NCBI GenBank assembly: GCA_037013685.1
Contig: CM072886.1
Location: 23,381,080 to 23,445,079 of the forward strand
Source: Acridotheres tristis
Lineage: Eukaryota > Chordata > Aves > Passeriformes > Sturnidae
Length of the DNA: 64,000 nt
Direction of reading: 5' to 3'
Numbering within the stretch: position 1 is the stretch's first letter; the number at the start of each line of letters is the position of its first letter. The notes under the pieces are model-generated. The model ran no database searches, was not told the DNA's origin, and saw nothing but the letters and a program-made list of their open reading frames with translations. This document shows, piece after piece, positions 29,501-32,371 of the stretch. A program made the position numbers and the translations under genes.

Positions 29501-32371
29501 TGCAGGTAATTATTAGTCCTTTTGAGTACAGTGATAGAATCTAGTCTGTTCTTATCTGAGCTTTTTAAAAAATATGTCTTTAAATATATTTGTGCTTTTG
29601 CATGGAATGCCAGATACTGAGCTTCATTCCTGTGTCTGAAAGTGAAAAAGAGTTTAACAACATTAGTCAGTTTTTCATTGCCTTTAGGCACTGAATTTGA
29701 ACACTGTGTGATTGTGGTTTTGATTTATCTGGGTGTCCTTGGTGTAGGTTTCAATGCACCATTTAAGTCCAAACCCACCTTTTGACTATTTGCATAGCAC
29801 TGGAAAAGAAAAAAGCTGTGGAAGAGAAGAAAGGTGTAGAAAAGCAGGATTGCTTGGGAGGTATTAGTGTAGAAAGCAACCTAACGGACCCTGAAGTCAC
29901 TTTCAGGCAAAGAGGTGGGCCACAGAACCATGCACGTGGTTTCCTGGAATTTAAATGTTCCTCTTGCTGGGTCCCCTCCCCCACTATACCCCAACTGTCT
30001 CATTTTGTGCCCTGTTTCTTTTCTCCTTAATTTGTCCTGCTCTCTTGAGGGGCAGGAAGAGGGACTTAATTTTTTCATGTTATTTTGTCCATCTTGACAC
30101 CCTCTCTTTAAAAATTGAGGGTTAATTCAGATTTGTGGCCACCTTCATTTTAGGCTGGCATGGTGTAACATGTTTTGTGACCATGCCTAGTAAGCATGTA
30201 GTAACACCTGTCAGCATCAAGGCCATGATTCTAATGGAGTTGCAAATGTGACCTGCTATGCTGTAAGAATGTATGTACAGTATTTTTAGTTTCAATACCT
30301 ACTTTAAGTATAAACCGCATGGATTTTTATTTTTGTTTGGTTTATATTTTTATGAGCTTTTAAAGAAATTTTAATACATGATGGACTTCACTTAGTGCAG
30401 TGAAAATGGATACAACTTTTATGTGTTTGTTTGGCTTATCATCCACAGTCACTTTCTCTGTTTTTCCTTTTTTTTTCCTTTTTTTTTCTCTTTTTTTTTC
30501 CTTTTTTTTTCCTTTTTTTTCCTTTTTTTTTCCTTTTTTTCCTTTTTTTTCCTTTTTTTCCTTTTTTTTCCTTTTTTTCCTTTTTTTTCCTTTTTTTTTC
30601 CTTTTTTTTCCTTTTTTTCCTTTTTTTTCCTTTTTTTTCCTTTTTTTTCCTTTTTTTTCCTTTTTTTTCCTTTTTTTCCTTTTTTTTTCCTTTTTTTTCC
30701 TTTTTTTTCCTTTTTTTTTCCTTTTTTTTTCCTTTTTTTTCCTTTTTTTTCCTTTTTTTTTTTTTTCTTTTTTTTCCTTTTTTTTCCTTTTTTTTTCCTT
30801 TTTTTCCTTTTTTTTTCCTTTTTTTTTCCTTTTTTTCCTTTTTTTTCCTTTTTTTTCCTTTTTTTTTCCTTTTTTTTCCTTTTTTTCCTTTTTTTTCCTT
30901 TTTTTTCCTTTTTTTTTCCTTTTTTTTCCTTTTTTTTCCTTTTTTTTCCTTTTTTTCCTTTTTTTTCCTTTTTTTTCCTTTTAAATCCAAAGATTTTAGC
31001 TTTCATCCTCATCAGGAACATTCCCGGATATGTCCGATCTGTGTATAGCTCATTCTTCGCCTGGTTCGGCAAAATTTCTTTAGAGGTAAGTGGCATGACC
31101 AGAAGTACGGTGAATTAAAATTAGAAATGTAAGGTGGTGTTATGGTCTAGATTGGGCTACAACACATACAGAAAACATTTATTGACTTACTAAATGCCAC
31201 ACTGTCATGTTTGACCTCTCTTAGCATTATAGCTTCTGTTGCACTTAAAAATCATGGCTGAAATAGCAGTCTCACAGTACCAGGTTTAATTCTTGTGCTG
31301 TTTTAGGGGATGGGATGATTTAAGGTTGTGAGAGTGGGGATTAAATGTTGGAGTATGGTGTGAGGTGTATGCAGTTGGAAGATAAAAATTTAGGCCAGTT
31401 GAAGAATTTGCATGAATTATACTGACTAGTGTAAGTACACGTATAAACTTGTGTTTGCCCTAGGAAGCTTTTTGTGACTAACAAAGAAATGTAAACCCCT
31501 TCTTAATGCAAGTGTTACCTGGTTCCTTTGAGTGTGTATTTTGAAACAGTAGGAATTATCTTGCTTCCTATTTTATTTGCTGTTCAGTGATATTAAATGT
31601 GACATTTTCTTGTATTACTAAAATATATTTCTAGGAGAAACTCATTGCAATATAGGGTATATGGAGTACAGAATTTTGTGGGTTTTTAAAAGCATCACAT
31701 TTCACTCTTCCAATTCCTAATGGGCTTTAGGTGCTCATCAGCTCCTGGGAGCTGTGGATTCATCAGCAGGTGAAGCATTTTCTTTTATTTGCAAGCATGT
31801 AATTTCAGAGAGACACTCAGTTCGCTTACCAGAGACACACTAACTGAGGGAGGCAGATTTTTCCCTGCTCTGATGGAATGTATCCAATGCTCCCCTGAGC
31901 TATATTTGGTTGAGCCAAGCAAATCCGTTTCACTGTGTGATTCAACAAGCTCATGGTTTTCTTCTGTAGCAAAGACATGTGGAAAACAGCTTCTAACTTA
32001 AGCAGAAGTGTCTCAATTGATGCAATAGTAATAATATGGTTTTTGGTAAGTAAAAATATTTACATATCTAAGTATTGTTAAACACTTTTTTTTTTTTCTT
32101 TTAGCTTTTCATTTGCCAATACCATATTTGGCTGGCAGCAGACACAAAGGGGATCTTGGTGCTCATTCCTGGATATCCGATGTTTAATGTTCTTGTCAGC
32201 ACTTTCATATTTGTGTGCGTGGCACATGAGATTTCTCAGATCACTAATGATCTAGCACAGATTGTGGTTCCTAAAGATAACTCAACTCTGCTGAAGAGGT
32301 TGCTATGCATAGCTGGATTTTTTTCTGGACTACACTTCTTCTCTGCAATGCAAGACCAGTCAAGGCATTAA
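5437..32371 (+). CDS. CASD1: CASD1, sialic acid 9-O-acetyltransferase (18 exons, complete)
   Basis: Joined coding sequence: 5437-5569, 10650-10746, 11422-11542, 13088-13132, 15328-15390, 16549-16593, 19257-19380, 21049-21263, 22222-22647, 23055-23144, 23692-23811, 24700-24856, 26390-26469, 27388-27489, 28750-28890, 29428-29505, 30993-31085, 32105-32371. All introns are GT-AG and all phases fit, giving 2397 bases, 798 residues plus TAA; the human protein is 797. The known enzyme transfers acetyl from acetyl-CoA to CMP-sialic acid in the Golgi, producing 9-O-acetylated sialoglycans. Order: an N-terminal membrane anchor (about residues 21-38), a luminal SGNH/GDSL-like domain with GDS(94)R and D270-G-L-H273 (the catalytic triad established for human CASD1), then from about residue 300 a multi-pass acyltransferase-like membrane domain. 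No frameshift, stop or lost catalytic residue is seen. It converges with SGCE, as in other vertebrates. Confidence 0.97.
5570..10649 (+). other. CASD1 intron 1 (about 5.1 kb)
   Basis: The largest CASD1 intron. Its first 400-700 bases belong to the CpG island and are GC-rich; the rest is AT-rich. I see no further exon, RNA gene or identifiable transposon in it. The open frames across 5570-5980 reflect GC-rich composition rather than coding. Confidence 0.8.
10650..10746 (+). CDS. CASD1: CASD1 exon 2 (residues 45-77)
   Basis: Encodes GDTCEYLLSSGRFLGEKVWQ and the PHSCMMHKYKN stretch, the conserved start of the luminal domain. Acceptor caaag|gtgg, donor atag|gtaagg. Enters in phase 1 and leaves in phase 2. 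Too short to stand out as an open frame by itself. Confidence 0.95.
11422..11542 (+). CDS. CASD1: CASD1 exon 3 (residues 77-117), catalytic serine
   Basis: Encodes DKHVVFIGDSRIRQLFYSF: the SGNH block I motif G-D-S-R with the nucleophile at residue 94, the same position as in human CASD1. Acceptor gttttacag|tg, donor taag|gtgaga. The exon ends on a complete codon. Confidence 0.97.
13088..13132 (+). CDS. CASD1: CASD1 exon 4 (residues 118-132)
   Basis: A 45-base exon encoding HGNIPFEDKSASIKV, after a T-rich acceptor (ttttttttgacag|) and before gtaagt. Frame-neutral at both ends, so skipping it would remove 15 residues without a shift. Confidence 0.95.
15328..15390 (+). CDS. CASD1: CASD1 exon 5 (residues 133-153)
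   Basis: A 63-base exon encoding DFLWYPEVNGSMRQRIKSWT plus E, with an NGS glycosylation sequon. Acceptor attttacag|, donor gag|gtttgt, which is weaker than the neighbouring donors. Confidence 0.95.
16549..16593 (+). CDS. CASD1: CASD1 exon 6 (residues 154-168)
   Basis: A 45-base exon encoding GSVAKPHIIVVGAAT, a buried strand of the SGNH fold. Acceptor gtttcttag|gg, donor acg|gtaagt. Phase 0 at both ends. Confidence 0.95.
19257..19380 (+). CDS. CASD1: CASD1 exon 7 (residues 169-210)
   Basis: Encodes WSIKIHNGSNEALAQYKINI followed by TSIAPLLEKLAISSDVYWVL. It contains NGS and NIT sequons of the luminal domain. Acceptor tctccag|, donor caag|gtaaag. Leaves one base for the next exon. Confidence 0.96.
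21049..21263 (+). CDS. CASD1: CASD1 exon 8 (residues 210-281), catalytic Asp/His
   Basis: Encodes DPVYEDMLSESRKMITNEKI and on to VDGLHLPESSRDT. The D-G-L-H motif places Asp at 270 and His at 273, the remaining catalytic residues known for the human enzyme. Acceptor aaattcag|at, donor aca|gtaagt. Confidence 0.97.
22222..22647 (+). CDS. CASD1: CASD1 exon 9 (residues 282-423)
   Basis: The largest internal exon (426 bases). It starts NAMILMNVYCNKIMKPIDGS and includes the first membrane span after the luminal domain (FFTLSIIGYLIISLI), a charged cytosolic loop (CTDLESGEEKK) and two more hydrophobic segments. The loop appears one residue longer than in human, which accounts for 798 against 797 residues. 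Acceptor tttttacag|, donor gag|gtaatg. Confidence 0.97.
23055..23144 (+). CDS. CASD1: CASD1 exon 10 (residues 424-453)
   Basis: A 90-base exon encoding TKVLNREQTDEWKGWMQLVI then LIYHISGAST. The EWKGW..Q motif and the His in a hydrophobic helix (IYHI) are typical of this membrane domain. Acceptor gcattag|, donor act|gtaagt. Confidence 0.97.
23692..23811 (+). CDS. CASD1: CASD1 exon 11 (residues 454-493)
   Basis: A 120-base exon encoding FLPVYMHIRVLVAAYLFQTG then YGHFSYFWIKGDFGVYRVCQ, among the most conserved parts of the family. Acceptor ctcaacag|, donor cag|gtaaga. Phase 0 at both ends. Confidence 0.97.
24700..24856 (+). CDS. CASD1: CASD1 exon 12 (residues 494-546)
   Basis: Encodes VLFRLNFLVVVLCIVMDRPY and QFYYFVPLVTVWFMIIYATL, two membrane spans. 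Acceptor accccccag|, donor aatg|gtaaga. Leaves one base of a Gly codon. Confidence 0.97.
26390..26469 (+). CDS. CASD1: CASD1 exon 13 (residues 546-572)
   Basis: An 80-base exon encoding GNCLWHFGLLLKLICLLTCI YFLSYSQ, a membrane span. Acceptor tcttcctcag|, donor cag|gtttgt. Confidence 0.95.
27042..27108 (+). repeat. Three copies of a 19-base unit, CASD1 intron 13
   Basis: The unit tggagtgcatattccttat occurs at 27042-27060 (one mismatch, g for a), 27062-27080 and 27090-27108. Spacing is uneven (1 and 9 bases between copies). No function is evident. Confidence 0.9.
27388..27489 (+). CDS. CASD1: CASD1 exon 14 (residues 573-606)
   Basis: Encodes GAFEKIFSFWPLSKCFELNG then NVYEWWFRWKLDRY. The YEWWFRW.LDRY motif is a family signature. 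Acceptor ttttacag|gg, donor tat|gtatgt. Reading on past the donor stays open for a while but loses family resemblance. Confidence 0.97.
28750..28890 (+). CDS. CASD1: CASD1 exon 15 (residues 607-653)
   Basis: Encodes VVFHGMLFAFIYLALQKHQM, a polar loop (SEGKGDPLFSNRVSN) and LLFISIVSFL. Acceptor cttttacag|, donor ttg|gtaagt. Phase 0 at both ends. Confidence 0.97.
29428..29505 (+). CDS. CASD1: CASD1 exon 16 (residues 654-679)
   Basis: A 78-base exon encoding TYSIWASSCKNKTECNELHP SVSVVQ, a loop with two Cys and an NKT sequon. Acceptor atcttttag|, donor cag|gtaatt. Frame-neutral. Confidence 0.96.
30461..30982 (+). repeat. 522-base pure C/T tract, (CCTTTTTTT)n-like
   Basis: A run of 522 bases with only C and T, mainly CC separated by 6 to 10 T, with one longer T run near 30750. 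It lies in CASD1 intron 16 and ends 10 bases before exon 17, so it takes the place of the normal polypyrimidine tract. The long Phe-rich and Lys-rich open frames over it on the two strands are products of this composition, not genes. Its exact length may be affected by sequencing or assembly. Confidence 0.95.
30993..31085 (+). CDS. CASD1: CASD1 exon 17 (residues 680-710)
   Basis: A 93-base exon encoding ILAFILIRNIPGYVRSVYSS then FFAWFGKISLE, with the conserved RNIPG and FGKISLE motifs. The acceptor is aaatccaaag|att directly after the 522-base pyrimidine tract; donor gag|gtaagt. Phase 0 at both ends, so skipping would remove 31 conserved residues without a frameshift. Confidence 0.94.
32105..32371 (+). 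CDS. CASD1: CASD1 exon 18, C-terminus and stop
   Basis: Encodes LFICQYHIWLAADTKGILVL, a membrane span, VAHEISQITNDLAQIVVPKD, and ends MQDQSRH before TAA at 32369-32371. Acceptor ttttcttttag|. The QYHIWLAAD motif continues the FGKISLE motif of exon 17 across the splice, as in human. Confidence 0.97.
   Translation, partial: LFICQYHIWLAADTKGILVLIPGYPMFNVLVSTFIFVCVAHEISQITNDLAQIVVPKDNSTLLKRLLCIAGFFSGLHFFSAMQDQSRH

Follow-up and report, generated by a model that had tools for sequence, protein, structure and literature searches.

A 522-nucleotide pyrimidine tandem array at the acceptor of CASD1 exon 17 in Acridotheres tristis and a probable very distant branch point

We analyzed a window of 64,000 nucleotides (nt) from the Acridotheres tristis assembly GCA_037013685.1 (contig CM072886.1, positions 23,381,080 to 23,445,079, forward strand; all positions below are those of the window). 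CASD1, a gene of sialic acid modification, is present intact on the + strand of the window; our model gives it 18 exons encoding 798 amino acids (a coding sequence of 2397 nt, stop codon counted) and 17 of 17 introns of the GT-AG type. A database protein, N-acetylneuraminate 9-O-acetyltransferase from Melozone crissalis (Passeriformes by taxonomy), matches over the full length with 99% identity and belongs to a cluster of 665 sequences, and the C-terminal 192 amino acids match the Pfam family Cas1_AcylT (5.3e-79). The subject of this report is the 3′ end of intron 16 of this gene, where a 522-nt tandem array composed entirely of pyrimidines closely precedes exon 17.

The acceptor of exon 17 could be assigned from the protein. 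Splicing to the AG at 30991-30992 joins the end of exon 16 (VVQ) to the start of exon 17 (ILAFILIRN), and among the AGs tested only this one gave the conserved protein. The AGs at 30998-30999, 31013-31014 and 30447-30448 all resulted in an early stop, as did retention of the intron; use of the AG at 30447-30448 would add about 200 codons of tract before a stop inside exon 17. Skipping of exon 17 preserves the frame. The junction was then compared in 120 listed CASD1 relatives, all of them database models, at the level of the protein. VVQILAF was exact in 95 of the 120, exon 17 was skipped exactly in 6 proteins, all mammalian (P0043, P0048-P0050, P0104 and P0106), 8 had no exon 16 sequence at the VVQ-ILAF junction and 11 were left unclassified. 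The junction was present in all 9 bird-named proteins (P0001, P0025, P0047, P0070, P0072, P0074, P0085, P0097 and P0109). Turtle models without exon 16 include P0018 and P0059. The other 16 acceptors of the gene read CAG (11), TAG (4) or AAG (1). We considered and rejected a U12-type intron 16, given the donor GTAATTATT and the lack of any U12 branch motif on inspection by eye.

The tract contains 101 C and 421 T and no purine at any of its 522 positions, and the second-longest pyrimidine run in the window measures 24 nt. Tandem Repeats Finder resolved the tract into 52.1 copies with a period of 10 and 91% matches. Counted directly, it comprises 52 C-T units, of which 49 start with CC; the T-runs are 7 (9 units), 8 (26 units) or 9 nt long (14 units), with lengths of 1, 4 and 14 occurring once each. 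Five units are irregular, and the T-run lengths of neighboring units are nearly uncorrelated. The tract is a tandem repeat rather than a stretched homopolymer. It lies wholly within intron 16, as a local intronic expansion bounded by exons, and ends 10 nt before exon 17; by simple arithmetic, the probability that one such tract falls in the sense orientation within 12 nt of any of the 17 CASD1 acceptors is about 0.0016. Inspection by eye alone, with no formal repeat search, noticed no mobile-element body beside the array. We did not accept the purity of the tract as proof of selection, since so few changes (five irregular units, with purines absent) do not separate youth from selection. A preliminary description of this stretch had assigned the gene, the exon number, the acceptor and the orientation as we find them from the 18-exon model and homology, and its report of a pure C/T run with these limits holds to the nucleotide. 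The unit that it gave, CC followed by six to ten T, is right for the CC start and inexact for the T-runs, which are mostly 7-9 nt. The gene model, the acceptor and the orientation give good support to the view that the array serves as the polypyrimidine tract of exon 17, making this a splice acceptor with a tandem repeat inside, and so does the ordinary spacing that the flanks would have if the array were removed.

Upstream of the acceptor, an AG-free zone of 542 nt extends between the AGs at 30447-30448 and 30991-30992. It is the longest gap between AGs on either strand of the window, where the next measure 143 nt (+) and 122 nt (-), and the AG-free zones at the other 16 CASD1 acceptors span 18-54 nt. 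The only purines from 30449 to 30990 are A30451, G30460, A30983-A30985, A30989 and A30990. Adenines near the acceptor sit 2 to 10 nt from exon 17, and the next ones upstream, at 30451, 30447, 30445, 30441 and 30438, are 542-555 nt from it. The preliminary description, which judged the near adenines too close to serve, had likewise seen no AG in this interval and had placed the nearest usable adenines about 540 nt upstream, in agreement with our measurements. Judged from this anatomy, a very distant branch point appears to be the likeliest consequence. A30438 fully matches yUnAy, with the AG at 30447-30448 following 10 nt later, at the margin of the 8-12 nt stretch where, by the rule given in PMC7969005, AGs are passed over. 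A30451, flanked by U at -2 and C at +1 and separated from the acceptor by no AG, would be our preferred candidate. The stretch at 30414-30448, which has ATACAACTTTT, a U-rich part and CACAG, resembles an acceptor in its own right; its use would lead to read-through of the tract and then a stop. The features of the locus are collected in Table 1.

Table 1. Features around the exon 17 acceptor of CASD1 (window positions).
Feature	Position	Strand	Description	Basis
CASD1 exon 16	29428..29505	+	78 nt, TYSIWASSCKNKTECNELHPSVSVVQ	exon model
CASD1 intron 16	29506..30992	+	1487 nt, donor GTAATT, acceptor CCAAAG	exon model
Purine-rich block in intron 16	29801..29850	+	can pair with the tract, predicted duplex -32.9 kcal/mol	
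Candidate branch adenosine	30438	+	GGCTT[A]TCA, 555 nt from exon 17, full yUnAy match	
Last AG before the acceptor	30447..30448	+	possible decoy acceptor, CACAG	
Preferred candidate branch adenosine	30451	+	CAGTC[A]CTT, 542 nt from exon 17	choice inferred
Pure pyrimidine tandem array	30461..30982	+	522 nt, unit about CCTTTTTTTT	
Exon 17 acceptor AG	30991..30992	+		exon model, alternative-AG test
CASD1 exon 17	30993..31085	+	93 nt, phase 0 at both ends, ILAFILIRN...KISLE	

Minor tandem repeats were also seen in the window at 58614-58672 (17-nt unit), 27042-27118 (20/28-nt units) and 37766-37830 (AT dinucleotide array).

Fold prediction gave no self-pairs for the tract alone and a mean unpaired probability of 0.98 when the pairing span was limited to 150 nt. 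When intron and exon were folded with no such limit, purine blocks at 29639-29652 and 29802-29852 paired with 52 of the 522 tract bases. We rejected RNA folding as a means of shortening the gap between branch point and AG: the tract has no self-pairs, and the purine blocks, being upstream of the branch candidates, would not be expected to bring them nearer. A tract predicted to be nearly unpaired would leave space for many molecules of U2AF65 or PTB. At the DNA level, the tract is a homopurine-homopyrimidine mirror repeat of the kind that defines H-DNA, pure over 522 nt, with imperfect mirror symmetry (best identity 0.88; the mean of 0.69 equals the expectation from composition), and it may be regarded as a candidate for triplex (H-DNA) formation.

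We think it rather probable that repeat growth inside an ordinary polypyrimidine tract separated the branch point from the AG in CASD1 intron 16. The unit of about 10 nt would have grown between the two, probably by replication slippage, leaving the original branch point (most likely A30451, or else A30438) more than half a kilobase from exon 17. U2AF65 would still bind the first pyrimidines beside the branch point, the first step of splicing would not wait for an AG, and the second step would use the first AG downstream, at 30991-30992, which it would reach because the intervening RNA is without AG and unable to fold on itself. Exon 17 would then be joined correctly and efficiently. If the array is cut to 0-1 units, keeping the 11 nt of flanking pyrimidines, A30451 comes to lie about 31-41 nt from the exon. 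This is close to the human mean spacing of 29.3 +/- 11.9 nt between branch point and AG (PMC9508853) and makes repeat growth between the two the simplest history. The account also draws on the contrast with the other 16 acceptors, on the early stops of the alternatives tested, on the intact gene and the junction in the nine bird-named proteins, on the distant branch points established in other genes and on the ACAP gene described below. Several observations weigh against it. The exon 17 acceptor reads AAAG. The U2 duplex scores are weak for both candidates (-1.1 kcal/mol for A30438 and +1.0 kcal/mol for A30451), and A30414/A30415, the best nearby U2 match (-5.2), would direct splicing to the AG at 30447-30448, with a faulty product. 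A distance of 542-555 nt exceeds the mapped branch point distances in the sources cited here (about 400 nt), and in the dog a PMEL poly(T) of about 55-66 nt is hypothesized by the authors of PMC7349775 to shift splicing already.

The usual spacing would be retained if the tract itself supplied the branch nucleotide, as a C or U lying about 18-45 nt before the AG, in which case the nucleotide rather than the distance would be unusual. The tract offers nothing but C and U at these positions, an ACAP acceptor described below is without A for 487 nt, and a review reports that cytidine or guanosine can replace the branch point adenosine in some mammalian introns (PMC10638238). The passage of that review names C and G, however, not U; pyrimidine repeats would be expected to fit the U2 pairing consensus poorly, and the 5′ edge of the tract does have adenines with pyrimidines immediately 3′. 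We regard a C or U branch point as unlikely. The array might instead be harmful, in the manner of the merle alleles of dogs: an overlong tract would cause skipping of exon 17, use of the decoy AG at 30447-30448 or intron retention, and the allele would be weak. Lengthening of the dog PMEL tract between branch point and AG is described as moving splicing to a cryptic site (PMC7349775), and the long polypyrimidine tracts of human PKD1 introns 21 and 22 are reported to favour aberrant splicing (PMC12574933). In CASD1, A30414/A30415 together with the U-rich part and the CACAG beyond it resembles a usable acceptor, and the in-frame skip of exon 17 is annotated in the 6 mammalian proteins among the 120 listed. 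In contrast to merle dogs, no competing AG lies between the tract and the acceptor, exon 17 is present in 9 of 9 bird-named proteins (database models), and pyrimidine-repeat expansions in RFC1, apparently not located at an acceptor, are reported to have left splicing unchanged (PMC11373605). We consider damage of this kind quite unlikely.

The assembled length might itself mislead, as an artefact or a rare allele, with a far shorter tract in the animal. Many types of sequencing read are prone to errors in T-rich arrays, and the T-runs here scatter between 7 and 9 nt. The array has a clean period of about 10 nt, however, and is situated inside a 150.9-Mb contig, and the assembly has related arrays, with differing units and lengths, at many other places; a much shorter tract seems very unlikely to us. 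Hardly credible, finally, is the use of one of A30983-A30985 as the branch point, 8-10 nt before exon 17. Two of these (A30983 and A30984) are the sole near-acceptor adenines with a U two bases before, and a branch point 6 nt from the exon is described for some yeasts (PMC10638238). AGs more than about 8-12 nt downstream are taken, however, according to PMC7969005, so that the AG at 30998-30999 would be favoured, with a frameshift, and there is no pyrimidine tract behind such a site.

We searched the whole assembly (1.04 Gb, 85 contigs) for similar arrays. Exact 32-mers of three units were found in the CASD1 tract and at one other place. Allowing up to 3 mismatches, the three-unit string gave 301 matches (167 + 134), a search for which a reversed-string control was uninformative. 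The matches were ordered by mismatch, and we examined the 37 other loci (L008 and L032-L067) behind the best 100 of the 301. Nine of the 37 belong to a dispersed repeat family, a CCT-rich array ending in CAG with flanks common to every copy, which we set aside as separate; its arrays (L034, L035, L040, L041, L042, L044, L057, L063 and L064) measure 85-131 nt. Outside this family, 14 of 28 loci carry a tract of at least 100 nt under a rule that lets isolated purines pass. The flanking DNA of these loci (127,837 bases, a sample biased to repeat-rich places) contained 7 pure pyrimidine or pure purine runs of at least 50 nt, 2 of at least 100 nt and 1 of at least 200 nt.

At one of these loci (L045:2442-2930; C26, ~1.917 Mb) the array leads directly into an ACAP coding exon. 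The AG-free zone of 487 nt contains 24 G and no A and is built of CCT-n and GCT-n units; the exon matches ACAP1 in the PDB (25 of 38 residues, E 1.4e-7), with no Pfam match. ACAP3 may be the closest. At L037 (C3, ~149.416 Mb) an array runs into an exon-like, acid-rich open frame at 4079, preceded by CCCAG and followed by a GTGAG donor. Its AG-free zone of 2,418 nt has 101 A inside, with TTCTGAC at -2411, at the upstream edge, and nearer As from -17; homology did not confirm this putative exon, six partial translations having been scanned with no match. Two further arrays precede recognised exons with closer branch candidates. Before the HSF1 exon (L038; C3, 149.78 Mb) CCCTGACCC lies at -25 in an AG-free zone of 133 nt, and at L039 (C7, 0.899 Mb) the array stops 76 nt short of an ES1-family exon whose acceptor has an A at -16 and an AG-free zone of 20 nt. 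L032 has, about 1.24 kb downstream and on the same strand, an ESCO-type zinc finger; its other strand gave a below-cut-off apolipoprotein match. No exon was recognised at the nine remaining loci, not every one of which was scanned fully: six-frame Pfam scans of L033, L060, L043, L049 and L048 gave no match above the cut-off (one below it for L048), and L008, L047, L052 and L054 were inspected for downstream open frames only. A zone with neither AG nor spaced A precedes two confirmed coding exons, those of CASD1 and ACAP; elsewhere there is a normal acceptor or no known exon. Further CCCT7 arrays lie at C3:149.801M, C33:1.304M and 1.352M, C6:70.175M and C32:4.834M.

In CASD1, ACAP, HSF1, the ES1-family gene and ESCO, all five recognised genes, it is the coding strand that carries the pyrimidines (0.5^5 = 0.03), a count biased by the fact that for three of the five the pyrimidine strand was inspected downstream first. 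A genome-wide rule by which arrays of this unit end at an AG was rejected: two units followed by CAG, with up to 2 mismatches, occurred 55 + 40 times, against 74 + 70 for the mirrored control, in a test that is weak in that the mismatches may fall within the CAG. A general rule linking such arrays to acceptors is not shown.

We advance, as a serious but doubtful possibility, the proposal that some constitutive coding exons of this genome have repeat-array acceptor zones of about 0.5 kb without AG or spaced A (CASD1 and ACAP, and possibly a third with 2.4 kb free of AG) and are still joined correctly, either by a search for the AG over half a kilobase or by the use of pyrimidine branch nucleotides. 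The lack of enrichment over the mirrored control slightly lowered the probability that we attach to it. If it is true, an accepted limit would move, either for the distance between branch point and AG or for the chemistry of the branch. How far the spliceosome can reach for an AG and whether it needs an adenosine are hard questions to pose in natural genes; with no A across 522 nt in CASD1 or 487 nt in ACAP, a very distant A and a C or U branch nucleotide become distinguishable. What is surprising here is the size of the zone, its repeat nature, the lack of any spaced A or AG, and the presence of a second, similar gene in the same genome.

Our literature search, which covered titles and abstracts of the open-licence papers listed, found no report of a tandem-repeat pyrimidine tract of the 522-nt scale at an acceptor. 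Related repeats and tracts are known from several systems. Shortening of T-tracts at acceptors is reported to cause exon skipping (PMC9957390). In merle PMEL, as would be the case in CASD1, a pyrimidine tract has grown between branch point and acceptor and length variation is expected; the PMEL tract is a poly(T) from a reversed short interspersed nuclear element (SINE) tail with a cryptic acceptor inside (PMC7349775), whereas the CASD1 array repeats a 10-nt C/T unit and is free of AG. PKD1 introns 21 and 22 share with CASD1 a long intronic pyrimidine/purine tract with the potential for non-B DNA (PMC12574933, PMC11696556); a 2.5-kb polypyrimidine tract appears in a reference title cited by PMC11696556, and where the tract sits with respect to branch point and AG is not stated in the PKD1 passages. 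The RFC1 expansions are CCCTT/AAGGG (PMC11373605). Among birds, GC-rich genes are described as having repeat-rich introns (PMC6792250), and the intronic "sequence stuttering" of chicken dot chromosomes is likewise a local intronic repeat expansion bounded by exons (PMC12954441). The stuttering units measure tens to hundreds of bases, compared with 10 nt in CASD1, which lies on a contig (C3) of 150,861,042 bases rather than on a dot chromosome. Growth of repeats at splice sites in birds may thus extend beyond the dot chromosomes.

The closest parallels are acceptors with distant branch points, which are known up to about 400 nt with AG exclusion (PMC1431707); in fission yeast, long spacing between branch point and AG requires Sde2, Cay1/Cactin and Tls1 (PMC9508853). 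An AG-free zone of at least 100 nt is reported for 838 of 67,334 human introns, with 381 nt in PTB, 438 nt in nPTB and 287 nt in GABBR1 (PMC1431707). PTB exon 11, nPTB and GABBR1 exon 23 resemble CASD1 in having a long AG-free zone with branch candidates at its upstream edge. Their zones are 287-438 nt long, some of the branch points have been mapped or tested, and the experimental cases are alternatively spliced; the CASD1 zone, by comparison, is 542 nt long and a tandem repeat with no spaced A, and the bird proteins seen, which are database models, give no sign of regulated splicing. In OGDH, distant branch points together with a "megaPPT" (a very large polypyrimidine tract) have been mapped in chicken minigenes (PMC7969005). 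OGDH and CASD1 both have a large pyrimidine tract between the distant branch point or points and the acceptor, that of OGDH being present in chicken. The OGDH arrangement is ancient and conserved, lies near a 5′ splice site and concerns mutually exclusive exons (PMC7969005), whereas that of CASD1 is a simple repeat in a 1487-nt intron. With an AG-free zone well beyond the 100-150 nt that marks such acceptors, and a purine-free tract between branch candidate and AG, CASD1 exon 17 would work like a distant-branch-point acceptor, a likeness that we draw from its sequence rather than a claim of proven membership.

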